From assembly GCA_007693585.1 (NCBI GenBank), contig REDH01000159.1, forward strand, positions 1 to 41,193: a stretch of DNA of 41,193 nucleotides, read 5' to 3'. The notes under the pieces were generated by a model that did no database searches, was not told where the DNA came from, and saw only the letters and a program-made list of their open reading frames with translations. Source of the stretch: Deltaproteobacteria bacterium. Its GTDB lineage: Bacteria; Myxococcota_A; Bradymonadia; REDH01. The position numbers were made by a program, and so were the translations under genes. How positions within the stretch are numbered: position 1 is the stretch's first letter; every line of letters starts with the position of its first letter. Shown one piece after another: positions 16,977 through 39,413 of the stretch.

Positions 16977-17020
16977 GGCCGTTGAAGGAGGCCGGTTTCG
17001 TTGCGCCCACACTTTTGTCC

Positions 17021-17049
17021 TTGCCTGTCGGCCCGTCCGCCCCGATACT
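17021..17049 (+). promoter_or_regulatory. Candidate promoter of the DUF1549-DUF1501 operon
   Basis: TTGCCT (17021-17026), a 17-bp spacer and GATACT (17044-17049) match 4/6 and 4/6 consensus positions. Predicted transcription would start near 17056, 37 nt before the ATG at 17093. The region overlaps a possible terminator hairpin, so only one of the two readings may be right. Confidence 0.35.
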
Positions 17050-17074
17050 GTCTCTCAAGGGGCGTTTCTTTTTC
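17038..17074 (+). terminator. Possible intrinsic terminator after the barrel gene
   Basis: CGCCCC (17038-17043) can pair with GGGGCG (17059-17064) across a 15-nt loop, followed by TTTCTTTTTC (17065-17074), a rare T-rich run in this DNA. The short stem and long loop make it weak. Confidence 0.45.
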
Positions 17075-17092
17075 AACAATCCGTGTGAGAGC

Positions 17093-18925
17093 ATGTGCGA
17101 CAACACCATGACTCCCCTCCTCTCCGGTGACGGGCGCGATCGCGCCCTTTCCGGGCCTGTCCGACTCCTGCTTCTGTCGGGTCTTGCGGTCATGCTGCTG
17201 TACGGCTGCAGCGAGAGCCCGGGCTTCGATCCCGTGGATCCGGCGAGCGGTCCGGGGATTCGCATGGCGGGGCAGGAGCCGGTGTCGCTCTCGTCCCTCG
17301 GGCCGATGTGGGATGCTGAACCCGCCGCCCTGGCGGATGCGGAGCCTGCGTGCGGTGCCGCGTGTCGTTCGTTCTGCGATGCGCAGGGCTTCACCAATCC
17401 GGTGAACCGGGCGCTCTGCCCGCACACGTGGGGTGTGGGGATCGAGACGGCGCCGGTGCGCACGTCGGAGGCGTGCCGGCGGCTGGCCGCCGACCTCACG
17501 GGGGTGCTGCCTTCGCTCTCGGACATTCGGCGGGAGTGTGTTGACGAGCGGTGGGACGACGTGGCCCGGGGGATGATCGAGAGCGAGAATTTCGTGTTCG
17601 TGAACCAGCGGAGGTGGGCAGATACCCTGCGCTACAACGTCGAGGTCGTGAACGTGGAGCGCATCTATGATGCGGACGCGCTCGTGGGGCGCCTGCATCG
17701 CGGCGAGGTGAGCTACGACACGTTCGCGGCGGCGGTGAGCGCCCACCCCGTGTTCACGCGCCGTTTCGCGACGGCGGAGGACCGGGCCGAGGCGCTGTTC
17801 CTGATGCTGCTCGGACGCCCGCCGCTCGGCAGCGAGCGGAGCGACATGGCCCGGCTTCTCGGCGTGTGGAGCAACGGGTACGTGGATCACCCGGAGCTGG
17901 GCATGCGCGTTCCGGACGCCTACGTTCGCTACCGCTGCGTGACCGATGACGGCGCCATCGACCCGGACTCGTCGGGCGCTTGCACGAGCGTGCTGTGGGG
18001 CTACAACCCCCTGATCCTGACCCCGGACGCCCGGGCGACGCGGGACCGCTCGGGGCAGATGATGTGGAACGGCCTGCTGACCGCCGAGGAGTGGCATGCC
18101 CTGCAGCTCCCGGGACGCATCCTCGCGCGCACGTCGACGTTCTGGGAGCACGTGGTCGACCGGACCCTGCTCCACTATCTCGGCTACCCGCTGGGCAGCA
18201 TGGTGCCTGCGGTGCGGTCCGCCCTGGTGGATCACCTTCTCGCGCACGACGCGGACATCCGGGTGCTCCACTATGCGATCGTGACGAGCCACGCCTACCT
18301 GCAGTCGACGCAGACCCGTGATGCCGAGGTTCCCTGGGCGGCTGGCCCGCTGAAGCAGGCGGACGCGGAGGTGTGGATCGACTCGGTGGCGGCCCACACC
18401 GGCTACCGCCTGAGCACCTGTGATCACCGCATCTCGCGCCCCGAGGACTTCCTGCGTGTCCGCAGCCCCTTCGCCTGGGCGCTGGTGGAGAACAGCCGCT
18501 GGGAGATCGACGGGGAGGGTCGCCTGCGGGAGGACTACCGCAACCTCGCCCGCAATCTGGGCGGGTGCCCGGAGAACACCGTGGGCGGCCGGTTCCGGGT
18601 CGTGAGCATCCTGACCACGTCCACGCAACTCAACTTCGTGAACCGGGTCTGCAACCCGTCCATGGATGACCGCGTGCGCGGAGCGGACGCCGCCGCGCTG
18701 CTCCCCCCGGAGATCGCCCCGAACGCGTCGGTGGACCCGGACATGGCAGAGGCGATCCACGAGTGGCAGATCCGGCGTTTCCTCGGCCGCAGCGCGAGCG
18801 ATGCCGAGCGCGAGGACGCCCGCGAGGCGGGGGAACAGTGCCGCCGCGAGGTCTGTCGCGCGGAGGAGTTCGCGCGACCGAGCTGCTTCGCCGTCCTCAG
18901 CAGCCCCGAGATGATGTTCTACTGA
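17093..18925 (+). CDS. DUF1549-like lipoprotein
   Basis: About 610 residues. The signal peptide has lipobox LLYGC (Cys39), so it is probably a lipoprotein. The segment CRRLAADLTGVLPSLSDIRR...VNQRRWADTLRY follows the DUF1549 pattern (RRL-x-LDLTG-x-P...W-D-x-x-RY), found in planctomycete-type surface proteins beside DUF1501 genes. A DUF1553-like second half is possible but less clear. The N-terminal region has a Cys cluster (CGAACRSFC) with no CxxCH, so it is not itself a c-type cytochrome. ATG 17093 gives a usable signal peptide; ATG 17108 is an alternative. It is 40 bp upstream of the DUF1501 gene. Function of the family is unknown; an exported complex is likely. Confidence 0.75.
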   Translation: MCDNTMTPLLSGDGRDRALSGPVRLLLLSGLAVMLLYGCSESPGFDPVDPASGPGIRMAGQEPVSLSSLGPMWDAEPAALADAEPACGAACRSFCDAQGFTNPVNRALCPHTWGVGIETAPVRTSEACRRLAADLTGVLPSLSDIRRECVDERWDDVARGMIESENFVFVNQRRWADTLRYNVEVVNVERIYDADALVGRLHRGEVSYDTFAAAVSAHPVFTRRFATAEDRAEALFLMLLGRPPLGSERSDMARLLGVWSNGYVDHPELGMRVPDAYVRYRCVTDDGAIDPDSSGACTSVLWGYNPLILTPDARATRDRSGQMMWNGLLTAEEWHALQLPGRILARTSTFWEHVVDRTLLHYLGYPLGSMVPAVRSALVDHLLAHDADIRVLHYAIVTSHAYLQSTQTRDAEVPWAAGPLKQADAEVWIDSVAAHTGYRLSTCDHRISRPEDFLRVRSPFAWALVENSRWEIDGEGRLREDYRNLARNLGGCPENTVGGRFRVVSILTTSTQLNFVNRVCNPSMDDRVRGADAAALLPPEIAPNASVDPDMAEAIHEWQIRRFLGRSASDAEREDAREAGEQCRREVCRAEEFARPSCFAVLSSPEMMFY

Positions 18926-18965
18926 CTGCCAGCCCGTTGTCGTTCCCCCCGATCGCCGAGCCGCC

Positions 18966-20381
18966 ATGAGCAAGCCGAAGTCACCCCGAGGTCTCGCCGT
19001 CAACCGGCGCACCTTCCTCAAGTCCGCCGTCGCCGTCACCGGGGCCGCCGCCTTTCCGCACATCTGGGTGCAACAACCAGCCTACGCCGGCACCTCGGCC
19101 CGGGGTGCGGTGAAGCACCTGCTCTACATTCGCCTGGGCGGTGGATTTCGCTTCACGGCCGCCTTCAACGGCGAGAGCGCCTCGCAGTTCAACCCGTTCG
19201 GCCTCGCCGATCGTGCCGCCAGCGGCGTCGACTGGGGTGTGGGCCGCATGCTCGCCGAGGCATCATGGCTGCAGGGGGACGACGGTCAGCGACGACGCGA
19301 TGCGGGCATGCGCACCGTGCCCGACCTCGCCAATCAGATCGCGGTGCTCCCGTGCGTGGACCACGAACCCAATGCCAACCGGGCCGACGGGAACCACGGC
19401 ACCGGTCTGGAGCGGTACCTGACCGGCTATGTCGGCGGAGACACCTCCTTCTTCACCATGATCAACTACGCCCTGCGCGAACGCGCGGCCGCGATCCAGG
19501 CCGAGGGGGGCATCGCCCTCCCCGCCTTCTCCCTTTCCGACGCGGGCATGTCGATCGGCCACGGGCGCTACGCCTCCTTCCGCCCCCCGGTGGTCCAGGG
19601 CGACGGGTTCGAAGGCTTCGGCTTCGATGCGACGAGCAGTCTCCCGGAGTGGGCTCAGGCCCTCAGCGCGCGCATGGACGCGCGGGCCCGCGACCGGCAG
19701 AACCCGTTTGCCCGCGATCAGGTCGACGCGTACCTGCAGACGCGGGAGGCCACCCGCTCCTACAGCTCCATCTTCAACAGCGACGTGCTTCGCATCCGCA
19801 ACAACAGCGAGGAAGCGGTGGACGGCATCTCCAACCGCCAGCTCGGCTTCCTCCTGGGCGACACCCGCGCGGCCCGACACGTTCGCCTCGCCCTGCGCCT
19901 GTTCGGCTTCGGCTCCCCGGCGTGCTTCCTCAACCAGGGCTACTACGACATGCACTCCGGCGAGGAGAACGGACTGCCCCGGCAGATGGACGAGCTCAAC
20001 CGCCTCATCAGCGGCCTGGATGTCGCCCTCAAGACGATGGATCACCCTGACGGAGGCACCTACTGGGACCACACCCTGGTCGTCTTCGGCTCCGAATTCG
20101 GGCGAACCGCCGGCGGAAACCGGTTCAACTCCGCCCGGGGCTCCGACCACGGCGGGGACCGCGCCACACGCTGGATGTCCATGCCCTTCATGGGCGGACT
20201 CATCGATGAAGCCGGCATGGGGGGTCGCATGATCGGCGAGACCGACCGCGACGATCTCCAGGCGCGGGACCGCGTCTTCTCCTACCGCTCGGTGCTCAAG
20301 ACCCTCATGGACGCCCTCGGGGGAGACCACAGGGAGTTCTTCCCCGGCGACCTGCCCACCGACGCACTCGTCCGCGGCTGA
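18966..20381 (+). CDS. DUF1501 family protein, Tat-exported
   Basis: A 471-residue protein. It begins with a twin-arginine signal (NRRTFLK at residues 13-19, then a hydrophobic AVAVTGAAAF stretch), so it is exported folded. The mature part has the DUF1501 pattern: HLLYIRLGGG near the start, a central CVDHEPNANRADGNHGTG-type segment, and the C-terminal FGSEFGRTAGGNR...SDHGGDRA block. The family is related to alkaline phosphatase/sulfatase folds, with metal ligands expected in the last block; the enzymatic role is unproven. It sits between the DUF1549-like lipoprotein and the heme lipoprotein, 14 bp before the latter, and is the core of the operon. Confidence 0.92.
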   Translation: MSKPKSPRGLAVNRRTFLKSAVAVTGAAAFPHIWVQQPAYAGTSARGAVKHLLYIRLGGGFRFTAAFNGESASQFNPFGLADRAASGVDWGVGRMLAEASWLQGDDGQRRRDAGMRTVPDLANQIAVLPCVDHEPNANRADGNHGTGLERYLTGYVGGDTSFFTMINYALRERAAAIQAEGGIALPAFSLSDAGMSIGHGRYASFRPPVVQGDGFEGFGFDATSSLPEWAQALSARMDARARDRQNPFARDQVDAYLQTREATRSYSSIFNSDVLRIRNNSEEAVDGISNRQLGFLLGDTRAARHVRLALRLFGFGSPACFLNQGYYDMHSGEENGLPRQMDELNRLISGLDVALKTMDHPDGGTYWDHTLVVFGSEFGRTAGGNRFNSARGSDHGGDRATRWMSMPFMGGLIDEAGMGGRMIGETDRDDLQARDRVFSYRSVLKTLMDALGGDHREFFPGDLPTDALVRG

Positions 20382-20395
20382 ACCGGAGCCCCCGC

Positions 20396-21775
20396 ATGAT
20401 CCGTTCCTCCCTCGCACCGTGGCTCATCGCCCTCCTGCTGCTGCTGCCCGCCTGCGGCGACAGCGCGGGGAGCGACCCCCTCACCGACGCCATCCAGGCG
20501 CCGCCGATCCGTCCGGATGCACCGGGCACCCGGGAGCCCGTCCGTTACGACGGGGACAACCCCTTCGTCCTCGAGGCGATTGCGCGGCTCACGACCGGAG
20601 AGGACCTGCACTTCCAGGTGATCCAGCGGACCTGCAGCCCCAACGAGGGCGTGTGCCACAACATGCAGGAGTATCCCGATCTGCGCACGCCCTCCTCGCT
20701 CGTCGAACAGATCGGCGCGCCCTGCAACAGCCAGCCGGGCCACTGGTCCACCGTCTATGACCGCTGCGAACCCCCGGGAGACCGCTTCTCGCTCCAGAAT
20801 CCGTCCACCCAACCCATGGAGATTGCCTGGATCGAACGAGTTCCCGGTCCCGGGACGGACTACCGGGCCGAAGGCACCGCGCCCGAGCTCGACTCCCCGG
20901 GACTGCACATCCGACTGCACTCGCCGTTGCGCCTCGACCGCGAGGAGTACTGGAGCGGTGGACAGTTCATCCGGACCTTCGAGCGGATCGACGAGGGCGG
21001 CCGGGCCGTCATCGAGGACGTCACGTTCGCGACCTACACCACCCGATGGTGGGTCCTCGAAGGCGGGCAACACCTCGTGGGCGAGGTGCGCGACTATCAG
21101 AGCGACGCCGTGAACAACCTCCTCAGCGTGGGAATCCAGCAGGGAGACCATAACCGGAACGGCGTCTTCGGATACCGCGAAGGCCTCAACGTGCCGATGG
21201 TCGCCGCCGGGGACCCCGAGCGCAGCTACCTCGTGGCCCGTGTGCGCGGCGAGATGCTCGGCGAGACCGTTCCCGGCACGCGCATGCCCCTCGCCAATCA
21301 GCCCCTGTCCATCCCGGAGATGCTCGCCTTCTTCTGCTGGATCGAGGGACTGCCCACCGATGGCAGCCCCGTCGACATGCGCTGGCCCATCGACTACACG
21401 AACTGCAGCTATGCCGAACGCCCCGAAGAGCTGAACCTTCTGGGAACGGGAACGAGCTGGGAGGGGCGCGTGCGTCCGCTCTTCATCGCCAACTGCGGAG
21501 GCTGTCACGGTGAGCGGCTCGCCGAGGCCGAGTTCCGTGTCACCGGTGACGACGCGTACGAGCGACTGTTCCAGCACAGCACCCAGATCGACACCATGGT
21601 GCTTCTCGAGCCCGGGCAACCGGAGAACAGCTACCTGTGGTGGAAGCTGGACGGGCACGAGCAGCTCGTCGGCCGCACCATGCCGCTCAGCCCGTCCGAC
21701 GGGGGCGGACGCCTGTCCGACGAGGAGCTGGCCGACATCCGCACCTGGATCGAGCAGGGAGCCCAGGACAACTGA
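20396..21775 (+). CDS. Lipoprotein with c-type cytochrome motif
   Basis: A 459-residue lipoprotein with lipobox LLPAC (Cys20). A canonical heme c site CGGCH (C367-H371) follows VRPLFIANC, as in planctomycete-type cytochrome domains, and TMPLSP downstream may give the axial Met. Near the N terminus a second Cys...CysHis pair is spaced Cx6CH (C80, C87-H88); this is not a standard heme motif. The middle (about 100-350) has no domain I recognise. GGAG lies upstream of ATG 20396. The operon position suggests it supplies the redox domain that is fused to DUF1549 in planctomycetes. Heme loading would need a Ccm or Ccs system outside the window. Confidence 0.82.
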   Translation: MIRSSLAPWLIALLLLLPACGDSAGSDPLTDAIQAPPIRPDAPGTREPVRYDGDNPFVLEAIARLTTGEDLHFQVIQRTCSPNEGVCHNMQEYPDLRTPSSLVEQIGAPCNSQPGHWSTVYDRCEPPGDRFSLQNPSTQPMEIAWIERVPGPGTDYRAEGTAPELDSPGLHIRLHSPLRLDREEYWSGGQFIRTFERIDEGGRAVIEDVTFATYTTRWWVLEGGQHLVGEVRDYQSDAVNNLLSVGIQQGDHNRNGVFGYREGLNVPMVAAGDPERSYLVARVRGEMLGETVPGTRMPLANQPLSIPEMLAFFCWIEGLPTDGSPVDMRWPIDYTNCSYAERPEELNLLGTGTSWEGRVRPLFIANCGGCHGERLAEAEFRVTGDDAYERLFQHSTQIDTMVLLEPGQPENSYLWWKLDGHEQLVGRTMPLSPSDGGGRLSDEELADIRTWIEQGAQDN

Positions 21776-26539: not shown

Positions 26540-26602
26540 GCCCGAAGGCGCGCATCCGAGTCGACGGTGTCACCCTGCGGATCGGCTCATGCGCCTTCGG
26601 GC
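26540..26602. terminator. Inverted repeat at the convergent ABC permease/kinase junction
   Basis: A 12-bp arm (26540-26551, GCCCGAAGGCGC) is perfectly complementary to 26591-26602, and two further A/T pairs form if a 2-nt bulge is allowed. The loop is 39 nt. The right arm includes the last codons and stop of the kinase gene. There is no T tract, so it may be a bidirectional Rho-independent-like or 3'-stabilising structure rather than a classical terminator. Confidence 0.4.
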
Positions 26603-29600
26603 TCCCCGGGACGAGCCGGCACGAGCTGCTGCATGATCTCGTCCCGCAACGCGACGCACGCTTCCACATGGGGCAGATCCAGCTTCCTGAGGAGCGCGAT
26701 GGCCTCGTCAAGGACGGACACCGCTTCCTGGTGGTCTCCCTGTGCGGACAGGGCACTGGCCAGGTTGGCCCGGCTCCGCGCCTCGTTCTGAGCGTCCCCG
26801 CAGCTCCGGCCGATGGTGACGGCCTCGCGCCACGCCGCGACGGCCTCGGCGTCGAGGCCGAGGCCGGCAGCAGCGGCCGCCAGGTTGTTGAGGATTCGGC
26901 CATGCAGGACGGGCTCCAGCAGCTCGGCCGCGAGAGAGAGGGCCTCGCGGGAGAGCGCGAGCGCGCGAGCGAAGTCGGCCTGCTCGAAGCGGCACATGGA
27001 GAGGATATTGAGCATGACCGCGCAGGCGCGGCGGTCCCCGATCCGCTGTGCGAGGGCGAGGGCTTCCTCGGCGACGGGCACCGCCTCCGCGGGGCGCCCC
27101 AGCCGCAGGAGGGCCCCGGCCCGAACCTTCAGGGACTCCCCTCGTTCCCAGCCTTCTCCCACCCTCTCCAGCGACGCGAGCGCCGCATCCGCCTCGTCGA
27201 GGGCCTCGGGATATCGGGCCGTCTCGAGAAGGACGAACGCGAGACCGCCCTGCAGTTTCGCCTCGGTGGCCGTGAGGCCCAGCATCGAGGCGAGACTGCG
27301 GGCGGCACGAAGCTCGTTCTCCGCTGCCGCGTACTCGCCACGCTGGCGGAGAACGTCGATCAGCATCATCCGCGTCTCGAGGAACTCCCTTCCCAGCGCC
27401 GTGGAGCTGGACGCCTCCGGGGGCACCTCCTCCCATCGACGAACCGCTTCGGTCAGGGCGACGAGCGCCTCGTGCGTGCGCCCCTCGCGAAACAGGGCGA
27501 GACCCCTGAGCTGCATCGGGCGGCCGGTCGCCTGTCCTCCGGCTTCGGCCTGGTCGAGCGTGGCCAGCCACCGCTGCTCCTCGGCGGACTGCCCTCGCCG
27601 GCCAGCGAGGAGCGCACGAACGAAAGCGAGCTGACCGAGGTCGTCCGGGGACAGCGAAGCCTCGTCGAGATCCCCGGCGATGGACTCCGCAAGCAGGTCA
27701 TTGCCCGCGGCGATCGACTCGCGCGCCGCGCGGAGCGACCACGAGGAGGCTCCTTCACACCCGGCGCGCGCACGCAGCCTCCCGATGGCCGTCAGGTCGG
27801 AGATCCGGAGTACGGCACGGCGCTCGCGCGCCTCGGCAAGCCACGCGCACCATACCGCGACGTCCGCCATGCCGTCGGCCAGTGTGCGCGCCTGGGCATG
27901 AGCCCTGCCATGACCAAAGCCGATCCGGTCGTCCGGGTGCTCGACGAGCAGCCCGTCATCCACCCAGAATGCCAGGTCGTTCTCGAGCTGGACGACCGCT
28001 TCGGGAAGGAGCTCCTTCACCGCCTCCACGACCTCGTTCCGGCGCCACATGGGACCCATCAGGGCGAGGAGGGCGAGCAGCCGAGTTCTCCGCCGGCCTG
28101 TTTGTCCCGAGTCGTGGAGTGCCACGAGTCGCTGGTGAAGCAACGCAGCGGCGCGGGAGTCTTCACCGAGCCGTTTCATGGCACCCTCGTCGAGCCACCA
28201 GCTTCCGGCGTGGAGCTGCAGGAGACCGCGCTCGGCGGCGCGATGCACGAACTCGATCAGATCGAGCGGGATTCCACCCACATGCTCCGCGATCGCGCGG
28301 GCGACGCTCTCGTGCATGGGCAACAGCGCAGCGGGAATGCGCGCCGCATCGGCGAGGGGAAGAGGGTGAAGCACGAGCTCGCGCACAAGCCCCGTGTCCG
28401 GAGCGGAGAGAACCCGGGTACAGCCCAGCTGCAGCCCATCGGTGCCGAGCGCCAGAAGCAGGGGAACCCGGGCGTCACGGGCCGCCCGGGCGATGCCCCT
28501 GACATCCTCGAGGAGCGGCCTTGCGAAAGGAACGGCCACGTCATCGACGCAAAGCAGCACCGGGCGGTCGCGGGAGAACCCGCGCAAGGCCTGGGCGATG
28601 GCGCGATGGTGCAGGGCCCGGATGGACGGCTCCCCCGACACATCCGCCGTCAGCGCGTCGGCGGCTCCCAGGTACCGGGCCACGTCCGCCCACGCTCCGG
28701 GCTCCCCGCCGGAGGGCGCCCGCAGGGAGAGCGAGGCGGCGATCGCGTGGTGAGGGAGTCCCGCGACACCAAGCCGCCGAACGAGCTCCGCGCGCACGAC
28801 CGACAGGAGATCGGCCGCCGCGCTGCCCCCAGCGGATACCGAAAGGCCCCGCAGCAGCCCCTCCTCCACGAAGCTCGTCCGCATCCAGCGCAGGAGGCGG
28901 GACGTGCCGACGCCATGATCCGCCGTGATGACCACTACCCTGGTGCCCCCCGCCGTTCGGACGGTTCGGGCGAGATGCGCGAGCTGCGACCGTTCCTCGA
29001 GTCGCCCGACCATGGGGGGCATCCGGAGCCCGACGAGGGAGACCCCACCCGGCATCTCGGGCCCAGGCTCCAGCGGCCGAGACCCGTCGCCTGTTTGTGA
29101 CTCCCCGGGGCCGGACAGCACGGCGCGGGTCCGCGCATCGGGCTGCGACGGAAGTCCTTCCCCCGCCATGCGGGTGTTTCTTCCGGGGTCATGCGTCTCC
29201 ACGAGGGTCGCACGGCGCGGATCCGCGATCCCTCCCGGTGACTCCGACTCGGCCACGGTGAGCTCGCTGGTCGGCCGCTGCACGTGCCGAGGTCTCGTGG
29301 CGATGGTGGCCTCATGCTCCGCGAAGCCTGGGGGTTCCGTCCCGCACGGCCGACGCGTCATCCGCTCCACCCGAAGCCGATCGAGGGCGACGCGGGGCAC
29401 GATGTGCGGGTCATCCTCCCGGTCGAGCGGCACGGGATCGAGGGCCTCGAGACGATCATGCACCTCACGGGCGCAGTCCGGGCGCGCATCGGGGTCCTTG
29501 CGCAGCAGGTCCCGAATCAGCTGCTGCAACGGCGCTGGTGCGCGCGCTCCGGACGGCAGGAGGATCGGCGGCACCGGCGCCACCACGTGCCGCATCATCT

Positions 29601-30312
29601 GCTCCTGCACCGTATCCGCGGGGAAGGGGTGGCTCCCCGTCACCCACTCGAAGAGCATCACCCCGAAGGCGTAGAGATCGCTGCCGGGTCCCACCTTCTC
29701 GCGCTGCCCCCGGGCCTGCTCCGGGGCCATGTAGGCGGGTGTGCCGAAGACGGTGCCGGCCAGGGTCGCCCGCTCGGGCGCGTTCGGCGTTCCGTACCCG
29801 ACCCGAGCGACCGCATCCCGATCCTCGGCGAGCCTCGCGATCCCGAAGTCGGCCAGCTTCAGCATCGGTCCCCGCGCATCATGGGCCAGCAGCAGGTTCT
29901 CCGGCTTCAAATCGCGGTGCACCACGTCGCGGGCGTGCGCGAACGCCAGCCGCAAGGCCAGCTCGGAGAGCAGGTGACGAACCGCGGAGAAGCCCAGCCG
30001 CGGCCCGTCGACTCCCTCCAGGCCGCAGCCCTGGACATACTCCATCGCAAACCAGACCCGTCCGTCCTCCTCCACGCCCTGATCGAGCACGCGCACGATC
30101 CCGGGATGCTCGAGGCGAGCCGCCGCGCGCACCTCGCGCAGGAAGAGTCGCCGGACCTGTGGATCGGTCACCCGATCCTCCCGGATGATCTTCACCGCTA
30201 CCGTGTCCCCGGTCCGGAGGTCTTGCGCCCGGTGGACATTCCCCATTCCCCCGCGACCGATCGACTCTTCGACCAGGTAGCGCCCCCCCAGCTTGCGTCG
30301 GCCTCCCGACAT
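26587..30312 (-). CDS. Ser/Thr protein kinase fused to an ATPase-like region and TPRs
   Basis: A 1,241-residue multidomain protein. The PknB-type kinase domain (about 11-290) is complete: GRGGMG loop (19-24), Lys41 in VAVKII, HRDLKPEN (132-139), DFG at 155-157 and GTPAYMAPE. A proline- and charge-rich linker (300-430) leads to a regulatory ATPase-like module (about 432-760) opening MVGRLEER. Its P-loop reads ADHGVGTS at 464-471 with Thr in place of the invariant Lys; LLCVDD is the Walker B-like strand. The remainder (about 880-1230) is TPR-type helical repeats with NNLAAAAAGLGLDAEAVA-like units. Such kinases are frequent in Myxococcota. No transmembrane segment is visible. ATG 30312 has GGAGG about 8 bases upstream; a longer in-frame extension is not supported. 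Confidence 0.92.
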   Translation of the reverse strand: MSGGRRKLGGRYLVEESIGRGGMGNVHRAQDLRTGDTVAVKIIREDRVTDPQVRRLFLREVRAAARLEHPGIVRVLDQGVEEDGRVWFAMEYVQGCGLEGVDGPRLGFSAVRHLLSELALRLAFAHARDVVHRDLKPENLLLAHDARGPMLKLADFGIARLAEDRDAVARVGYGTPNAPERATLAGTVFGTPAYMAPEQARGQREKVGPGSDLYAFGVMLFEWVTGSHPFPADTVQEQMMRHVVAPVPPILLPSGARAPAPLQQLIRDLLRKDPDARPDCAREVHDRLEALDPVPLDREDDPHIVPRVALDRLRVERMTRRPCGTEPPGFAEHEATIATRPRHVQRPTSELTVAESESPGGIADPRRATLVETHDPGRNTRMAGEGLPSQPDARTRAVLSGPGESQTGDGSRPLEPGPEMPGGVSLVGLRMPPMVGRLEERSQLAHLARTVRTAGGTRVVVITADHGVGTSRLLRWMRTSFVEEGLLRGLSVSAGGSAAADLLSVVRAELVRRLGVAGLPHHAIAASLSLRAPSGGEPGAWADVARYLGAADALTADVSGEPSIRALHHRAIAQALRGFSRDRPVLLCVDDVAVPFARPLLEDVRGIARAARDARVPLLLALGTDGLQLGCTRVLSAPDTGLVRELVLHPLPLADAARIPAALLPMHESVARAIAEHVGGIPLDLIEFVHRAAERGLLQLHAGSWWLDEGAMKRLGEDSRAAALLHQRLVALHDSGQTGRRRTRLLALLALMGPMWRRNEVVEAVKELLPEAVVQLENDLAFWVDDGLLVEHPDDRIGFGHGRAHAQARTLADGMADVAVWCAWLAEARERRAVLRISDLTAIGRLRARAGCEGASSWSLRAARESIAAGNDLLAESIAGDLDEASLSPDDLGQLAFVRALLAGRRGQSAEEQRWLATLDQAEAGGQATGRPMQLRGLALFREGRTHEALVALTEAVRRWEEVPPEASSSTALGREFLETRMMLIDVLRQRGEYAAAENELRAARSLASMLGLTATEAKLQGGLAFVLLETARYPEALDEADAALASLERVGEGWERGESLKVRAGALLRLGRPAEAVPVAEEALALAQRIGDRRACAVMLNILSMCRFEQADFARALALSREALSLAAELLEPVLHGRILNNLAAAAAGLGLDAEAVAAWREAVTIGRSCGDAQNEARSRANLASALSAQGDHQEAVSVLDEAIALLRKLDLPHVEACVALRDEIMQQLVPARPGEPEGA

Positions 30313-30926
30313 CGTTGGTCCTCCGTGGGCCGCGGTGACTGTCGAAGCGCCCGGGCCCTGTCGGTGCCATGCTGCGCCAACCCTCCGGTGGACGCAACGG
30401 CGTTCGCCGGTGCCCATTCCGCCGAGGCCCGGGCGAATCGGATGTGGGCAGGCCGCCACGGCGGCCGTCTGTGCGGATCCTCCCGGGCAGCCCCGGGGTC
30501 GGATCCACCCGACCCAATCCGGCTCGGGTCGGTTGAAACCGGACGCTCCCGGTCCCGCTGTCGTTTCCGAAAGCGAGCCGACTCGACAGGAACCCTGGTC
30601 CGGAGCAAGCTCCGTCCGCCCCTCCGGCCGCCTCCCCCCCGAGCCCCCGCAAACCGGTCCATGTCGCCCCCAGCCCTCGACGACATCCTCGAACGCATGG
30701 CATCCCCCGTCCCGTCACCAACCTGCGGCGCGACGGTGACCGGCAGGAGTCTTCCTCGGCGCCCATCTCGTCATGGAAACACCGGCGGCGCAGCCCCCTC
30801 TGACAGGTCGTTCAGACACTGGTGCCACCCCGCCGAGCCGGACGCCCGTCGACCCGCCAGGCAAGGTCGCACTCCGCTCGGCTTCAGCACGCCCCGATCT
30901 GGCGAGCGCCTCATCCTGCACTAGGG
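30313..30926. other. 614-bp spacer between divergent kinase and hypothetical genes
   Basis: No convincing gene. An 87-codon frame at 30661-30924 (starts MSPPALDDILERMASP) quickly becomes Arg/Pro-rich and looks non-coding, although it stops 2 bases before the next ATG. The spacer contains three copies of a heptamer at 30496-30532 and presumably the promoters of both flanking genes, which I could not locate. Confidence 0.6.
30496..30532. repeat. Alternating heptamer repeat GGGTCGG/CCGACCC/GGGTCGG
   Basis: GGGTCGG at 30496-30502, its exact complement CCGACCC at 30509-30515, and GGGTCGG again at 30526-30532. The middle copy can pair with either outer copy (6-nt or 10-nt loop), giving two mutually exclusive 7-bp hairpins, or the array may hold operator half-sites. 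Confidence 0.6.
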
Positions 30927-31676: not shown

Positions 31677-34600
31677 TCAGACCTCGATGGCGTCTGCGGT
31701 CACGGCGCGCCAGAGCGGCGAAGTGGCGAAGGCGAGCAGCCCCCGGAGCAGCGGTGCTGGCTGGAGGGACTCGTCCACGGCTTCCCAGCTCTGGAAGGCC
31801 ATGGGTCGCTCGACCCGGTCATCCATCACCGAGAGCACCTTCCAGATCTGCATGAGGTCCGGTCCGGCCACGAGCCCGGCGCAGTGGCCCTGGTGGACCA
31901 CTTCGGCGAACCAGTCACGGGCGACCTCGGTCGGGTCCTGATCCCCGTGGTCGATCAGCGTGGCCGCCCAGGCGTCGAGCCGATCGAGCCCGGCCACCTC
32001 CCGCAGTCGCTCCACGAGAGCCGCCACCTCGGGGCGCTCGGCCTCGCGGAAGTCGAGCGCCGCCCACAGCGCGAGGAAGAGATCCTCGCGGGTGCGCGCC
32101 GTGACGAGGCTCGCGAGGCGCCGCCCCGACCGGAGGCGGAACAGGGCACCGCCGAGCACGAAGCCCACTTCCGCACGGGTGAGGTGGGGCAGCAGATCGG
32201 CGCGAACAGCGAGTGCGGGGGCGCCTTCGAGCATGCCCATGCGCAGGGGCTCGGGCTGCTCTTCGGCGCGGTGCAGGCTGACCTCTCCGATGTCCCAGGT
32301 CTCGACGATGGACTGGAAGCCTCGGCCGAGGCCCGAGTGGGGGCTGATCGGCGAGAGCGAGATGCCGGAGAAGCCGGTGTGCGGGAGGCCTAGCTCGTCG
32401 GCGATGCCCTCCAGGGAACCGAGCACGGCGCTGACGGCAGCGAACCGGCCGCTCTCCTCGAGGGCGGCTTCGCCCTGACTGCCGAGTAGCATCAGGGACG
32501 GCTTCTCGTGGTCGCGCCGCATGCCCTTGAGCGTGTTGCGGAGATCCTCTTCGGCCTCCCGGACGACCATCGCCGGGGACAGCAGGCACCAGGCCCGGCG
32601 CGGGTCCTCGTTCAGGAGGATCTCGCCGAGCTCCGCGGCCGGTCGGTACCACGGCGGTCCCCACTGGATCAGCCGACTGGTCAGGTCCTCCCGTTCCGAC
32701 AGGTCGCCGCGCGGGCCGAGTTCCTCCAGCAGCCATCCGACCGCACGCGCCGAAGGCTGGGCGTCGATGGCATTGCGAAGATAGGTCTGGACCTGGTCGG
32801 TGCGTCCCAGCTCATCCTGTGCGATTTCGGCCATCTGCAGCCAGGCATCGGCGCGCTGGGCGTCGGAGCCGCCCTCGGCGATGGCTCCGAGCAGCTCGAT
32901 GAGCTGTTCCCAGTCCCCGCGCCGCCGGAGCACGTCGGCGAGTCCCAGTCTGGCCTCGTGCCGCGCCGGGTCGTAGGACAGCGCCATGTCGAAGGCCTCG
33001 ACGGCGTCTCCCTCGACGCTGGCATCGCCGCTTCCCGACAGGATCTCGCCCCGTGCGAGCCAGAGGTCCGCGAGCTCGTCGGCGTCGGTGGCATCCGGGA
33101 GCAGTCGCTCCACGAGATCGAGCCCCCGTTCGAGCTGTCCGGCGCGCCGGCAGTGCCGGAGCACACGGTGCATGAGTCCGCGGGTCTCGAGCCCGTCGAG
33201 CAGGGCGAATTCGTAGGCCGCGCCGGCCTCGTCGTGCAGTCCCAGGCGATCCTCGAACAGGAGACCGACTTCGAAGTAGCGCGGCGCACGGCTGGACCGG
33301 TCCGGATCGAGCGCCAGGGCCCGGAGGTGGAGCTCGAGAGCTTCGGCCACATGGCCCGACTCGGTCTCGAGGGTTGCCAGGGCATCCAGCGCCTCGAGGT
33401 GGAGCGGGTTGAGTCCGATGGCCTGCTGGAGCGCACGACGGGCATCCTCCTCCCGTTCCTCCCGCCGCAGGGCCAGGCCCTGGAGGCAGAGGAGGTCCGA
33501 GAGCAGGCTCGCGGGCGTCCCGTCATCGTCCTCGGGGGACAGCTCTCCCAGGAGGGCCAGCAGCTCGGTCTCCCGCTCCTGGGCGAGGAGGTAGCCGGCG
33601 AGCGCGTACAGGGCGCTTCCGCTCGTGGGTGCCAGCGTGAAGCTTCGCTCGGCGCAGGCGGCGAAGAGCGCATTCTGCCCGGCGGACTGGAGGGCCGGAA
33701 CGATGGCGAGGAGTTCCTGGACCTCGTCCTTGCGCAGCCCCTCGTCCTGCAGCCCGGTGGTGCGTTCGCGGGCACGGAGCGCCGCGATGCGAGACTGGAC
33801 GGCGGCATCGGGCTCGCCGCCGCGTTCCTGCAGCTCCGCCACCCGGCGGAGCAGGTCTGCCCGATCGGGGTCGATGGCAGTGGCCCGCTGGAGCCAGTCC
33901 AGCTCCGTCGCCGGGTCGCCGGCCTCGTCGGCGAGCTGGACCAGCCGCTCGACGCGCTGCTCCAGCGTCAGGTCGCGTTCCCCGTCCTCGGGCAGCAGCG
34001 CCGCCGCGGGGCGCAGGGCCTTCAGGCGTCGGCCGATTCCGCGCAGGGCCTCCCGTGCGCAGGTGTTCTCGGGATCCAGTCCCCGCGCCTCGCGGTAGAA
34101 GCCCACCATGCGCGGCTGAAGCCCGTCGACCTCGTCGCAGACTTCGGCGAGGTGGCAGAAATGCAGGGCAGCTTCGCGCGCATCCAGGCGCCGTGCAGCG
34201 GCCTCCCGGTGGGTGAGGTAGGACGTCCAGTCTCCGCGAAGCCGAGCGAGGCGGGCCTGGAACAGCGGCACCGCCACGTCGGCGCCGTAGACCACACCAT
34301 CCCCGCGAGCGGCCTGCGTCAGGGTGGCGTCAGCCCCTTCCCCGTCGTCCAGATCGTTGGCCTGCACGCGCGCGCGATCGAGGAGCAGCCGGCGGCGCTC
34401 GTCGGCGCTGTCGGCCGTGCGGGCCCACTCCTCCAGACTCTCCGCGAAGGCGTCCAGCGCCCCCCGCGCCACAAGGGTTGCCGCCAGATCCCGACGGATC
34501 GAGGGGTCGTCCGGGACGACCGCCAGGGCCCGGCGGAAGAAGTCCGTCAACTCCCCGCTCTCGAAGGCATCACGATGTCCGCGGCACGCGCGCAGGGCGT

Positions 34601-37600
34601 CCGAGATGGCCCGGGCGCGCTCCTCCCCTTCCAGGGCCTCCGCGCGGGCGAGCTGAAGCTCCGCGATGTCCTTCCAGCGGCCCAGCGGGGGGAGCAGCGT
34701 AACGAGCCGTGTCCACGCCTCGTCCACCGGCCCGGCATGGTCCACCAGGTCCAGCAGCGTCCCCACCGCCGCTTCCGCGTCCTCGAGTTCATCCTGCTGC
34801 AGGGCGGCCATGGCGAGCTGAAGCTCGGTGGCCCGCTCCCCCTCGGCCGACATCAGCTCCAGCTGCAGCCAGCGAAGCCGGAGCTCCGCAGACCGCAGCT
34901 CCTCCACCAGCTCGGCGAGCCGTTCTCTCGCCTCCTCGTGTTCCGGGTCGATCTCGAGGATTCCGGCGAAGGCCGTGAACGCGCCCTCCGGATCGTCGAG
35001 CTGATCCCGGCACAGCGTGGCCACCTCGAGCTGGGCGGCCACACGCTCGTCCCGATCCTCGGAGAGCACCACGGTTCGCCGGAGCAGGCGACGCAGGGAA
35101 TCCCAGTCCTCGGCGTCCCGGGCCGCATCGGCGAGCGTTCCCACGATCTCCAGATCGTCCGGCAGGAGCCGGAGAACACGCTGACGCACCTCGACCGCCA
35201 GCTCCGGGCGCTCCAGAACCCCGGCGTAGAGCGTCGCCGCGCGGCGAAGCAGGGCGGCCCTGCGCTCCGCATCCGACGCCCGCGCCGCGGCGATCCGGAG
35301 CACCATGGCGAGGTCCTCCTGACGCCCGGCCTTGCCAGCCATGGTCACCAGGTGGACGTCGCCGTCCTCGTGATCGGGGTCCGCCATCAGCGCCTCCGCG
35401 GCCAGCTCGAACCCCCGCTCCGCGTCTCCCGCATCCTGAGCCCAGACCGCGCTCAGTCGGCGCAGGGCCGTGGCCGGGCGGTTCCCCGCCGCAGCGAGCA
35501 GACTCGCCTCGATCATCGGCAGCACCCGATGCAGGGTTGCGCCGTCGTCGCCCAGCGCCCGACCGGCCTCGATCACGGCGTCGAAGCACGCTTCGGGCAG
35601 GAGCCGGAACCGCTGCAACTGCACCCGGAAGGCCCCCGGGGCATCGTCCAGCAACGCGCGGCGAACCTTCTCCTCCTCCTCGAGATGGTGCAGTCGCACC
35701 TCGAGGGAGTCGGCCACGACGGCGAGGTCGCCGTGGGCGGTCGCCAGAGCCGACTCGAACCCGCTCCCGGTACACAGGGTGTGCAGCCGCCCGACCACAT
35801 CCTCGTCGGGGCCGTCGAGTGCGATACGCCGCCGCAGGGCGCCGATGGCGCGGCGAGGATCGTCCAGAGGCCCGCGCGCCAGCGCCTCGCAGCGCTCGAG
35901 CGCTGCCCGGCGCCCTGCCGCATCGCCGCTCAGGTGCAGCGCCTGCTCCTCGACGAGGGCCAGGAGGTCCTCGTGCCGACCGGTCTGTTCCGCCAGGCGC
36001 TCCAGCTCCTCGAGGGCCTCGCTCACACTGCCGGGCGACGCGAGCGACGCCGTGCGCAACAGCCAGGCCCGGTCGGCGCCCTCGAGGTCCTTCTCCAGCA
36101 GCTCGGCCAGAAGATCGCGCACGGACCCGCGCTCGTCCGCGGACTGCGTGAGCAGATGAAGGCGCAGCAGCCAGCATACGGTGGGAATGTCCCCGACCGC
36201 ACGCCCGGCCGCCACGAGCTCCGCGATGTCATCCGGCCGCCGCTCGCCGAGCAGGAACCGGCGGCGCGCCAGATCGAAGCGACCCTGCACGTCGTCCTCC
36301 GCGAGCCGCGCTCCCCAGGCCTCCAGGCGCGCCAGACGCACGGCCTGCGGCGCCTCGCGGAGCGCATGGGCGGCCAGCCAGTCCAGCGCCTCCTCCGGGT
36401 GACCGTCTCCGGCGTACAGTTCCAGCAGGCGCGCCAGCGCATCCGGGTCCTCCGCCAACGCCAGCAGCTCCTCGAGCACCCCGATCTCCAGCCGGGCCTC
36501 CCCGGAGGACGACCAGAACCCCGCGAGCTGCCGCAGGTTCCCCTGCCGCGCCTCCTCGCCCTCGACCTCCTGCAGCGCGGCCAGCTTCACCAGCGCCCGA
36601 CGCCGGCCCGCTCCCGCGTCGGCGAGGCATCCGTCGAGCGCCTCGAGCGCGGGCCCCTGCCGGGTGCTCGTGTCCACCACCAGCAACCAGGCATCGGCGG
36701 CGCGAGCCGGATCCTCGAGGGCCTCCTTCAGGTGGCGCGCCGCCTCGGCTCCGACCTGCGCGGCCTCTTCCACATCCTCCGTCAGCGCGTACCGCCGCAT
36801 CATGTCGGCGAGCTGCGCCTCGCGATCCCCGAGCTGCCGGTTGAGCGCCGCCGAGGCCTCGAGCGCTCCCGTGTGGCTCGGCTCGAGGCGCAGCACCTCC
36901 GCCAGGGCTTCCCGCGCGCGGTCCGTGTCCTCCCCCGGTCCCGTGCACAGACGCGCCACCGACAGCAGCGCCTCCACCCGCGCGGCGCGGTCCGGAGCCC
37001 GACGCGCCTGCTCCTCCAGCACCGCCCGCCGTTCGCCGTGCTGACCCGTGGCCGCATACAGCCGGTCGAGGTCCGCCAGGACCTCCCGGTCCTCGGGCGC
37101 CGCCTCCCGGATCGCCAGCCGCAACCGCACGGCCCGCGGCAGGTTCTCCAGCCGGTTCTCCGCGATCTCCGCCGCCTCCCGCAGCAGCTCCAGCTCCTCG
37201 GATCGCTGCACCGCCTCGGCCGCGCGGGACTCCAGGAAGTCCGCCAGCGCCGTCCACTCCCCGCGCTGCTCCAGCCACGCTCGGCGCGCGGAGAGCGCCC
37301 CCGCATCCCGCGGATCGATCTCCAGAACCCGGTCGATCAGCCGCGCCGCATCCTCCTCGCGACCCGCCTCCCGCACCGCCGCCGCGATCCGGTGCAGCCG
37401 GTCGACACGCGCCGCGTCATCGAGCGCCGGCGCCTCCGCCAGTTCCAGCAGCGCATCCCAGCGCTGCAGCCGAGTGCGAATCCGCACCAGCAGCTCCGCC
37501 TCCACCGCATCCGGAGGCGAATCGCCCCGGTCCTTCGCCAGCAGGCGCTCCGCCCCGTCCGCGTCATCGAGCGCGAACAGCCGAAGCTCCGCCAGCTCCC

Positions 37601-39251
37601 GGCGCAGCAGCCGGGACGTCGCCGCATCCGCCGATTCCACCTGGCGCTCGATGAACACCGCCAGCTCCTCCCAGCGACCCGTACGACGATACAGGCTGGC
37701 CAGCGCACTCGTCGCCTCCTCCAGGCCGTCCCCCAGGCTCCACAACTGCTCCCACGCCGCGATCGCCAGATCCAGCCGCCCAAGCCGCTCCGCAGCCGTG
37801 TCCGCAGCCAGCCGGGTCAGCCGCAGCCGCTCGTCCCGGTCCCAGTTCGCCTCCACCGCACGCAGCGCCGTCGTGCAGATCCGCTCCCACCGGCCATCCT
37901 CCTCCCACGCACCGTGCAGCCACGAGAGCACCTCCGCCTGGCCGGGCTCGACCGTCAGCAACGCCTCGAACGCCTCGACCGCGCGGACCCGATCCCGCAG
38001 ACGATCCCGATACAACCTCCCCAGATCCTGAAGGATCGACGCCAGCGTCGCCCCCTGCGCGAACGACGCGCGCATCGCCGCGTGCGCGCTCAGCGCCGCC
38101 ACCTCCCGCCACTTGTTGCTCCGCACCAGACGCTGCAGCTCCCCCCGCCACACCTGCTGGTCCTCCAGCCACTCCCCCGACCGCGCCGCAAGCTCCTCCG
38201 GCAGCTCCGGCAGCTCCAGATCGATCGCCCCGGCACCCTCCCCCGGCAACGTCACCGGCTCCGTCGACTCTGCCTCCGAGGCCGCCGCGTCCTCGACCAT
38301 CCCCTCGTCCGCCGACTCGTCCGACAGTTCGTCCGCAGGTTCACCCGCCAGCGCCGCCGACAGTTCGTCCGCAGGTTCACCCGCCAGCGCCGCCGACAGT
38401 TCGTCCGCAGGATCGTCAAGCAGCGCGACCTCATCCATGATCCCCGGCTCCCCCCCCACCGGATCCTCGTCCTCCCCGGCGTCCCCCTCCGCGAACGTCG
38501 ATCCGTCCAGCCGCGCCTCCGCCGACGACTCCATCCCATCCACCCGCGCCGCCGCCTCGCGCTGCAGGCCGGTCATCGACACGCGGTCCCACTCGCCCTC
38601 CCCGTCCATCAGCAGATCGTCGTCCGCATCCGGCAGCAGGTCCTCCCCCCCCTCCATCGACAGCACGTCCCCACCCGCCCCGGCTTCCTCCTCCAGCCCA
38701 GCGGCGTCGTCCGGCTCCAGCGCCACACCGAGGCCCTCGTCCACCATCGTGTCCGGCCCCTCGGCCAGCGTATCCGCCTGCGGATCCTCCAGATGGAAGT
38801 CCGCGGGCAGCGTCTCCTCCGGAGAGACGTCCCCCAGGACCTCCGGCTCCGCGGCCTCAACCGCGACCGGCTCGCGCGACACCACCGGACTCGGCGCCGT
38901 GTCCGCCTCCGTCCCGCCGCCGAGCAGGGAGCCCTCCCCCAGCAGCGGCTCGTCCCCGAGCAGATCGTCCATGTCCCCGAGCAGATCATCGTCCAGCGAC
39001 ACGGCCTCCTCCGCGAGCGGCTCCGCCGCTGCTTCCGCGGGGGCCGCCTCCGCCACGCCCACCGACCACGCCTGCCCGGCGCCGTCGTTCGCAGGCTCCA
39101 CCTCCTCGAGCAGGAGATCGTCCCCGTCGAGGTCCAGAAGCTCGGGCTCCTCCACCGCCTCGATCTCCAGAAGATCGTCGGCGTCGAATTCGATCACCTC
39201 ACCGGTGTCGGAACCGGGAGTGGGCGGGATGGGGCGGTTGTCGTCGCTCAT
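31677..39251 (-). CDS. Giant TPR protein with acidic N terminus and M48-like tail
   Basis: A 2,524-residue protein. Residues 1 to about 360 are acidic and low in complexity (repeated DDLL, LLGDEPLLGEG) with no signal peptide. From about 380 to 2,230 the chain is almost entirely TPR-like helical repeats with units such as RDRVRAVEAFEALLTVEPGQ and ALSYDPARHEARLGLADVL. The last 290 residues form a distinct domain: EGAPALAVRADLL, then TRAEVGFVLGGALFRLRSG at about 2357-2375, resembling the M48 metallopeptidase arrangement without HExxH. TPR proteins of this size scaffold complexes in myxobacteria; the partner here is unknown. ATG 39251 has GGAAAGAG 7 bases upstream. It diverges from the isocitrate dehydrogenase gene. 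Confidence 0.9.
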   Translation of the reverse strand: MSDDNRPIPPTPGSDTGEVIEFDADDLLEIEAVEEPELLDLDGDDLLLEEVEPANDGAGQAWSVGVAEAAPAEAAAEPLAEEAVSLDDDLLGDMDDLLGDEPLLGEGSLLGGGTEADTAPSPVVSREPVAVEAAEPEVLGDVSPEETLPADFHLEDPQADTLAEGPDTMVDEGLGVALEPDDAAGLEEEAGAGGDVLSMEGGEDLLPDADDDLLMDGEGEWDRVSMTGLQREAAARVDGMESSAEARLDGSTFAEGDAGEDEDPVGGEPGIMDEVALLDDPADELSAALAGEPADELSAALAGEPADELSDESADEGMVEDAAASEAESTEPVTLPGEGAGAIDLELPELPEELAARSGEWLEDQQVWRGELQRLVRSNKWREVAALSAHAAMRASFAQGATLASILQDLGRLYRDRLRDRVRAVEAFEALLTVEPGQAEVLSWLHGAWEEDGRWERICTTALRAVEANWDRDERLRLTRLAADTAAERLGRLDLAIAAWEQLWSLGDGLEEATSALASLYRRTGRWEELAVFIERQVESADAATSRLLRRELAELRLFALDDADGAERLLAKDRGDSPPDAVEAELLVRIRTRLQRWDALLELAEAPALDDAARVDRLHRIAAAVREAGREEDAARLIDRVLEIDPRDAGALSARRAWLEQRGEWTALADFLESRAAEAVQRSEELELLREAAEIAENRLENLPRAVRLRLAIREAAPEDREVLADLDRLYAATGQHGERRAVLEEQARRAPDRAARVEALLSVARLCTGPGEDTDRAREALAEVLRLEPSHTGALEASAALNRQLGDREAQLADMMRRYALTEDVEEAAQVGAEAARHLKEALEDPARAADAWLLVVDTSTRQGPALEALDGCLADAGAGRRRALVKLAALQEVEGEEARQGNLRQLAGFWSSSGEARLEIGVLEELLALAEDPDALARLLELYAGDGHPEEALDWLAAHALREAPQAVRLARLEAWGARLAEDDVQGRFDLARRRFLLGERRPDDIAELVAAGRAVGDIPTVCWLLRLHLLTQSADERGSVRDLLAELLEKDLEGADRAWLLRTASLASPGSVSEALEELERLAEQTGRHEDLLALVEEQALHLSGDAAGRRAALERCEALARGPLDDPRRAIGALRRRIALDGPDEDVVGRLHTLCTGSGFESALATAHGDLAVVADSLEVRLHHLEEEEKVRRALLDDAPGAFRVQLQRFRLLPEACFDAVIEAGRALGDDGATLHRVLPMIEASLLAAAGNRPATALRRLSAVWAQDAGDAERGFELAAEALMADPDHEDGDVHLVTMAGKAGRQEDLAMVLRIAAARASDAERRAALLRRAATLYAGVLERPELAVEVRQRVLRLLPDDLEIVGTLADAARDAEDWDSLRRLLRRTVVLSEDRDERVAAQLEVATLCRDQLDDPEGAFTAFAGILEIDPEHEEARERLAELVEELRSAELRLRWLQLELMSAEGERATELQLAMAALQQDELEDAEAAVGTLLDLVDHAGPVDEAWTRLVTLLPPLGRWKDIAELQLARAEALEGEERARAISDALRACRGHRDAFESGELTDFFRRALAVVPDDPSIRRDLAATLVARGALDAFAESLEEWARTADSADERRRLLLDRARVQANDLDDGEGADATLTQAARGDGVVYGADVAVPLFQARLARLRGDWTSYLTHREAAARRLDAREAALHFCHLAEVCDEVDGLQPRMVGFYREARGLDPENTCAREALRGIGRRLKALRPAAALLPEDGERDLTLEQRVERLVQLADEAGDPATELDWLQRATAIDPDRADLLRRVAELQERGGEPDAAVQSRIAALRARERTTGLQDEGLRKDEVQELLAIVPALQSAGQNALFAACAERSFTLAPTSGSALYALAGYLLAQERETELLALLGELSPEDDDGTPASLLSDLLCLQGLALRREEREEDARRALQQAIGLNPLHLEALDALATLETESGHVAEALELHLRALALDPDRSSRAPRYFEVGLLFEDRLGLHDEAGAAYEFALLDGLETRGLMHRVLRHCRRAGQLERGLDLVERLLPDATDADELADLWLARGEILSGSGDASVEGDAVEAFDMALSYDPARHEARLGLADVLRRRGDWEQLIELLGAIAEGGSDAQRADAWLQMAEIAQDELGRTDQVQTYLRNAIDAQPSARAVGWLLEELGPRGDLSEREDLTSRLIQWGPPWYRPAAELGEILLNEDPRRAWCLLSPAMVVREAEEDLRNTLKGMRRDHEKPSLMLLGSQGEAALEESGRFAAVSAVLGSLEGIADELGLPHTGFSGISLSPISPHSGLGRGFQSIVETWDIGEVSLHRAEEQPEPLRMGMLEGAPALAVRADLLPHLTRAEVGFVLGGALFRLRSGRRLASLVTARTREDLFLALWAALDFREAERPEVAALVERLREVAGLDRLDAWAATLIDHGDQDPTEVARDWFAEVVHQGHCAGLVAGPDLMQIWKVLSVMDDRVERPMAFQSWEAVDESLQPAPLLRGLLAFATSPLWRAVTADAIEV
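38323..38411 (-). repeat. 36-bp tandem repeat inside the giant TPR gene
   Basis: Two identical 36-bp units (38323-38358, 38359-38394) and a 17-bp partial third unit. They encode the in-frame 12-residue repeat ADELSAALAGEP near residue 290, in the acidic N-terminal region. The perfect identity indicates recent duplication; copy number could change without a frameshift. Confidence 0.95.
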
Positions 39252-39326
39252 CGTGGCTCTTTCCGATGGAGGGGTCCGGATCCGGCACGGGACCCGGTCG
39301 GGATGGGGACCTGCCTGTCGATCCCC

Positions 39327-39355
39327 AGCCTACCCCAACGACCCCGCCCCGGCAA
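39327..39355 (-). promoter_or_regulatory. Weak candidate promoter of the giant TPR gene
   Basis: On the minus strand TTGCCG (plus 39350-39355) and TAGGCT (plus 39327-39332) are 17 bp apart, about 75 bp upstream of the ATG. The matches are only 4/6 and 3/6. Confidence 0.28.
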
Positions 39356-39385
39356 CGATCCCACGACCCCGCCCGCCAACGCCGC

Positions 39386-39413
39386 TTGACCTCCGCAACC
39401 CCGCCGGGATAGG
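39386..39413 (+). promoter_or_regulatory. Candidate promoter of the isocitrate dehydrogenase gene
   Basis: TTGACC (5/6 match) at 39386-39391, a 16-bp spacer and GATAGG (3/6) at 39408-39413. Transcription would start about 43 nt before the ATG at 39463. Confidence 0.42.

Follow-up and report, generated by a model that had tools for sequence, protein, structure and literature searches.

The described systems that bear most closely on the locus reported here are the M48 metallopeptidases (PF01435), with HExxH at their active site; the mini-gluzincins, which keep the peptidase motif; and BepA (YfgC) of E. coli (PDB 6AIT, 6SAR), in which an M48 domain is likewise joined to TPRs. BepA is described as active and periplasmic (PMC8423444), and its TPR domain, which consists of four TPR motifs and comes after the protease domain, as cupping that domain (PMC7950410). 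The window analysed here (the whole stretch of DNA, 41,193 nucleotides in length) encodes a giant TPR protein that ends in a domain related to these peptidases.

The TPR protein and its orthologues

The first-pass annotation, made from the letters and translations alone, had described a 2,524-residue TPR protein, and this description holds: the open reading frame has that length, and the Pfam families that it matches above cut-off are exclusively TPR families (Table 1). The frame is open across all 2,524 residues, and the third-position G+C of the gene is 0.88. On the opposite strand, a 2,293-residue ORF (32508-39389, +) runs antisense to nearly the whole gene; because its similarity to an antisense frame in one orthologue is a mirror image of that of the real gene, we take it as a shadow, probably driven by G+C. 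The translation by itself contains no obvious signal peptide, and on this basis the giant protein is probably cytoplasmic. An exact 36-bp tandem repeat of 2.5 copies (38321-38411) lies inside the acidic N-terminal region.

Table 1. Coordinates of the TPR gene and of the parts of its product discussed in the text
Feature	Position	Strand	Basis
2,524-residue TPR protein with C-terminal pseudo-M48 domain	31677..39251 (stop codon included)	-	ORF and translation; Pfam TPR matches; collinear orthologues
N-terminal ~340 residues, acidic, low-complexity, with DDLL-type motifs	38232..39251	-	Translation; mostly outside the conserved part
TPR solenoid, about residues 345-2180	32712..38219	-	Pfam TPR families; collinear tblastn alignments, 25-34% identity
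Pseudo-M48 domain, about residues 2257-2524	31680..32483	-	hhalign to M48; AlphaFold models; structural neighbours
PALAVRADLL, residues 2345-2354, strand before the former active-site helix	32190..32219	-	Translation; DSSP strand
GALFR, residues 2368-2372, on a helix in place of HExxH	32136..32150	-	hhalign register; helix of the tail model
Val2452 in place of the third M48 metal ligand, Glu	31896..31898	-	hhalign register, VVHQGHCAGL versus AEVTCDRAGL; helix of the tail model

When the tail was searched against 57 genomes, comprising its own and relatives, it was found in 10, its own included. Across 377 genomes of the phylum, a search with the tail alignment matched 24, of which 15 (again including its own) have strong and nearly full-length matches with E-values of 4.5e-30 or better, while the other 9 have weak, partial ones. 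In a collection of named genomes, the window tail alone had no match, and the alignment of nine relatives retrieved nine records that we took to be the same contigs as those relatives: five labelled Proteobacteria (four obtained from ruminant gut and one further bin), three Myxococcales (one of them UBA4248), and one Deltaproteobacteria. Twelve of the 14 other genomes yield whole-protein tblastn alignments that are collinear over 2,110-2,315 positions (25-34% identity) and start at residues 271-364 of the window protein; in the remaining two (G330 and G279), the contig holds part of the gene only. These collinear whole-protein alignments show the members of this window family to be one orthologous protein rather than a chance resemblance among TPRs, and TPRs were confirmed by Pfam in two of the orthologues.

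The gene neighbourhood provides no functional lead. Some neighbours are common to the loci of one family (f3), and in the rows inspected beyond that family, none were common except kinase genes and a single additional weak pair; kinases of a similar kind are matched elsewhere too. The window itself encodes a Ser/Thr protein kinase (26587-30459, -) that carries TPR repeats at its C-terminus and, between these and the kinase part, a weak AAA match. Its kinase part is recognised by many PADLOC kinase models (best PD-T4-6), perhaps for no reason beyond the shared kinase fold. Elsewhere in the window, three adjoining genes (16613-21775, +) match PSCyt2/PSD1 (weakly), DUF1501 (together with a TAT signal) and PSCyt1; this gene set is known from Planctomycetes.

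Resemblance of the tail to M48 peptidases

The resemblance of the tail to M48 surfaces only by profile-profile comparison and structure. M48 was not found in searches of Pfam, NCBIfam and the PDB with the tail, the family members and their profiles. At E-values up to 10, PF01435 gave zero matches to the window tail, to 11 window-family members and to 14 members of a wider family described below, for which only unrelated families appeared at chance level, and the last 342 residues taken alone gave zero Pfam matches at the same threshold; NCBIfam likewise matched nothing in this tail. For the profile-profile comparisons, we used an alignment of 20 true M48 peptidases (A6) and one of the 14 wider-family domains (A5), most of which come from giant open frames and two of which (C24 and C83) belong to the window's own genome. 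With hhalign, the window family (11 rows) matches M48 with a probability of 76.6, an E-value of 2.1e-5 and a score of 44.4, and the wider family matches it with a probability of 97.4, an E-value of 1.1e-11 and a score of 86.5, where each E-value is that of one pairwise comparison and column shuffles are the better guide. In 150 such shuffles, the maximum score was 22.0 for the window family and 23.5 for the wider family, and reversal of the M48 alignment gave 11.2 and 13.2, respectively. A narrower alignment (A1) matched M48 only weakly, with an unshuffled score of 32.3 and a probability of 19.5%. The window and wider families match each other with a probability of 99.75 and an E-value of 2e-27.

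The first-pass annotation had proposed that the last domain follows the M48 layout, with the strand PALAVRADLL followed by LTRAEVGFVLGGALFRLRSG. Both strings are found in the translation, from residues 2345 and 2357, respectively, and the profile-profile comparison, with its controls, gives the same register. Here, HLTRAEVGFVLGGALFRLRSG lies opposite RLSDAELKFVIGHECGHIQNS of a true M48 peptidase, and hence HExxH corresponds to GALFR. Active M48 peptidases are encoded at three places in the same genome with matches above the Pfam cut-off, including one with HECGH and EVTCDRAGLLCCGD, and the second motif of this HECGH-containing enzyme resembles that of the pseudo domain.

An AlphaFold model of the tail, built with nine relatives, has a pLDDT of 89.3 and a pTM of 0.88. 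In this model, PALAVRA forms a strand (162-168, by DSSP), GALFR lies in a helix (177-190), and Val2452 lies in another (258-280). Foldseek searches of the PDB returned nothing at an E-value of 0.001 for either the tail model, whose best match was ZMPSTE24 (E 0.23), or the model of a homologue. When the 992 top Foldseek chains were realigned to the tail model, ranks 1-19 (Z 7.7-5.3) were taken by ZMPSTE24, HtpX, Ste24p, BepA, BlaR1, selecase, jannalysin and abylysin, with MATCAP close behind at Z 5.1; these values are modest, all below 8, and a Z under 8 may reflect a common arrangement. BlaR1 belongs to M56 and the last three are mini-gluzincins; ranks 1-19 are M48, M56 or mini-gluzincin structures without exception. 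The same is true of the homologue domain, which was modelled alone with a pLDDT of 91.8 and for which ranks 1-19 span Z 8.2-5.3 and the next row falls to 4.5. With the same neighbour list obtained twice and an independent profile result, we regard the assignment of the tail to a diverged, M48-like (gluzincin) fold as firm, in line with the first-pass annotation. The structural comparison yields no residue pairs, and the register of the active site thus rests on hhalign.

The former active site across the phylum

In the hhalign register, the window protein has Gly, Ala and Arg at the His, Glu and His of HExxH and Val at the third ligand. The motif occurs nowhere in the 2,524 residues; the replacement of the metal-binding His and Glu that had been noted earlier is borne out, and the third ligand is gone as well. 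Loss of the active site in this domain is well supported. With all three zinc ligands and the catalytic Glu replaced, it should, judging from its sequence, neither bind a catalytic zinc in the way of M48 nor cut by the M48 mechanism.

The window tail is part of a larger, undescribed family. A search with the wider-family alignment (A5) matched 219 of the 377 genomes of the phylum, 194 of them strongly, although models of Pfam and NCBIfam did not identify the domains scanned as M48. The number of strong genomes was obtained by eye, by subtracting from the 219 those 25 for which the best E-value is 9.8e-8 or weaker; where the first motif is readable in these weak genomes, it belongs to a true M48 or to the [A/S]ExxH lineage described below, and many of the matches cover the second motif only. 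Strong genomes often carry several matches, and because about six candidates were scored per genome, copy numbers are lower bounds. Among the 150 matches listed, 106 are in open frames of at least 2,000 residues and 85 in frames of at least 3,000, with 22 in frames under 1,000, some of which are cut by contig ends. The frame ends 149-173 residues past the old motif in nine of the 14 wider-family members and runs on for at least 340 residues in the other five. Pfam detects TPRs in both wider-family proteins scanned, which are encoded by 4,043- and 735-residue frames of the window's own genome. The longer of these (C83, at L098:1869-13997) has many TPRs and a wider-family pseudo-M48 domain at its end. 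Among the papers listed by full-text searches of the openly accessible literature, a body that mostly excludes subscription papers and preprints, none has a title or abstract describing such a domain. With this finding, part of some of these bacteria's largest proteins receives a name and a role that can be tested.

The residues at the old site were compared in 90 strong loci, of which 30 came from the wider-family search and 60 were picked from the 150 matches listed; some are from the same genome, and most members of A5, the alignment used as the search query, are among them. HExxH is present at the site in none of these 90 loci and in none of the 11 window-family rows, which answers the earlier question of whether any homologue keeps the motif; the nearest approach to it is the [A/S]ExxH lineage (9/9 loci). 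The first His position is instead occupied by Lys (43) or Arg (39) in 82 of the 90 loci, and a single locus (L204) has His. Two loci have Glu at the position of the catalytic Glu, 80 have Leu, Tyr, Trp, Met or Phe at that of the second His, and 69 of the 90 have an acidic residue at that of the third ligand (40 Glu, 29 Asp). An R-x-G motif is near-fixed, with Arg in 83 and Gly in 85 of the 90. The window family is itself variable at the first His position (Gly, Tyr, Ser, Leu, Gln or Lys). The string HEEAH in L105 and L032 resembles HExxH but lies elsewhere in the domain (position 44), and three long frames considered as possible intermediates (L102, L103 and L104) proved to be true M48 peptidases that keep HExxH, with no repeats seen in the part inspected. 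A salt bridge between Lys/Arg at the first His position and Asp/Glu at the third-ligand position was also considered. The occurrence of the two is not associated among the 90 loci (63, 19, 6 and 2; Fisher p = 1.0, in a test of little power with just 8 loci lacking Lys/Arg), and the idea is thus unsupported by covariation.

Nine loci from other genomes of the phylum (L135, L136, L143, L144, L146, L147, L152, L157 and L162) form the [A/S]ExxH lineage. These sequences keep the Glu and the second His of the motif, have Ala (8) or Ser (1) in place of the first His, and all nine carry Gln at the third ligand. They share with the wider family an R-x-GLxxxGD motif and, within a longer frame, a closing segment that is much alike; in L136, Pfam found no TPR match in the 596 residues scanned. 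We inferred a maximum-likelihood tree from 82 rows, including 45 of the 90 strong loci (the even-numbered ones) and six of the nine [A/S]ExxH loci (those meeting the search pattern). In this tree, the window family is one clade (100/100) among wider-family domains, and the [A/S]ExxH rows form one clade (100/99) that groups with M48 (100/95); the M48 rows form a single group (97/80). Support is weak for the split that sets the wider family apart from the M48 side (81/42), and one wider-family row (L210) is placed on the M48 side of it. The window row is among the four end branches flagged as longest, as are two M48 rows. Given these placements and the weakness of that split, a stepwise loss of the metal site across M48, the [A/S]ExxH lineage and the wider family is plausible, and the lineage would illustrate, as a series found in nature, how a metallopeptidase could give up its metal one step at a time without losing its fold.

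Possible roles and comparison with known systems

Because several families of the phylum retain the domain at this same position, we think it most likely, with moderate confidence, that this catalytically dead M48-family domain acts as the terminal docking head, for protein-protein contacts, of a giant TPR solenoid that is probably cytoplasmic. For the binding role that we infer, a client or partner peptide would be held uncut in the old cleft and along the edge strand, and further partners may be gathered by the TPR solenoid together with the acidic N-terminal tail. By analogy, the arrangement could be viewed as that of TPR-M48 proteins such as BepA with the order turned round and the cutting lost: we propose a docking head on a scaffold because BepA shows that TPRs and an M48 domain can cooperate, and here the order is reversed, the solenoid is long and the peptidase is dead. 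A function of the old site itself is least supported for the window member, since it has Gly where most relatives carry Lys or Arg. A broader proposal, which we put forward only tentatively, is that giant TPR scaffolds with a dead M48 domain occur phylum-wide, that Lys or Arg replaces the zinc while the Glu or Asp of the third ligand is largely kept, and that the result is a charge-locked docking site; the [A/S]ExxH lineage would then be a surviving half-way stage and the window protein a further remodelled branch.

The dead domain might instead be a mere structural cap that closes and stabilises the end of the TPR solenoid and has no ligand of its own. The frame ends at about the end of the domain in nine of the 14 wider-family members, as it does in the window protein, and the old active-site residues of the window member differ from those common in the wider family, both of which would suit a cap. 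However, a globular domain of 270 residues is large for this purpose, the five members that continue past the motif do not end there, and the wider family conserves particular residues in the old site and around it (Lys/Arg where the first His stood, and the R-x-G motif); we regard this reading as less likely. Decay of the tail, in which the lost motif would mark a recently inactivated gene or pseudogene, is the least probable of all the readings: although the window row has one of the longest end branches in the tree, its frame is open throughout with the third-position G+C given above, the tail is recognisable in 14 other genomes, and there is no HExxH at the site in the 10 that were aligned with the window nor in 10 rows of another alignment.

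It is also unlikely that the fold descends from M56 or another gluzincin group rather than from M48. BlaR1 and the mini-gluzincins do stand beside the M48 structures with tied Z, but the R-x-GLLxCGD motif of the wider family resembles the CDRAGLLCCGD of the M48 group in these genomes, and the profile comparison with M48, the one group against which it was made, is strong. Very improbable, too, is a domain that remains a metal-dependent enzyme through other residues. The Glu or Asp kept at the third-ligand position in most wider-family loci, the His of L204 and the two loci with Glu at the second position are the features that would fit such an enzyme, whereas the first His has generally given way to Lys or Arg and the second to Leu, Tyr, Trp, Met or Phe, and the window member has lost every one of these residues.

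Among known systems, a close one is M48 (PF01435), here the group represented by C93 of the same genome (L060). This group and the pseudo domain are alike in predicted fold, with a strand and then the active-site helix, and in the ELxFVLG that precedes the motif and the R-x-GLLxCGD that follows it. In L060, the distance from the motif to the end of the frame is 158 residues, which is within the range seen in the nine wider-family members that end early. Unlike M48 of PF01435, the pseudo domain lacks HExxH and, in the window, the third ligand, is found on giant TPR proteins, and is missed by the Pfam model. The mini-gluzincins selecase, jannalysin and abylysin share the core of the fold, with selecase (4qhh) aligning over 70 residues at 1.9 A rmsd and Z 7.7, but these are stand-alone chains of about 105-112 residues, unlike the window tail. 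BepA, finally, is a structural neighbour of both models: in BepA, the peptidase is active and the TPRs come second, whereas in the window protein, the TPRs come first, extend over about 1,800 residues, and lead to a dead site.
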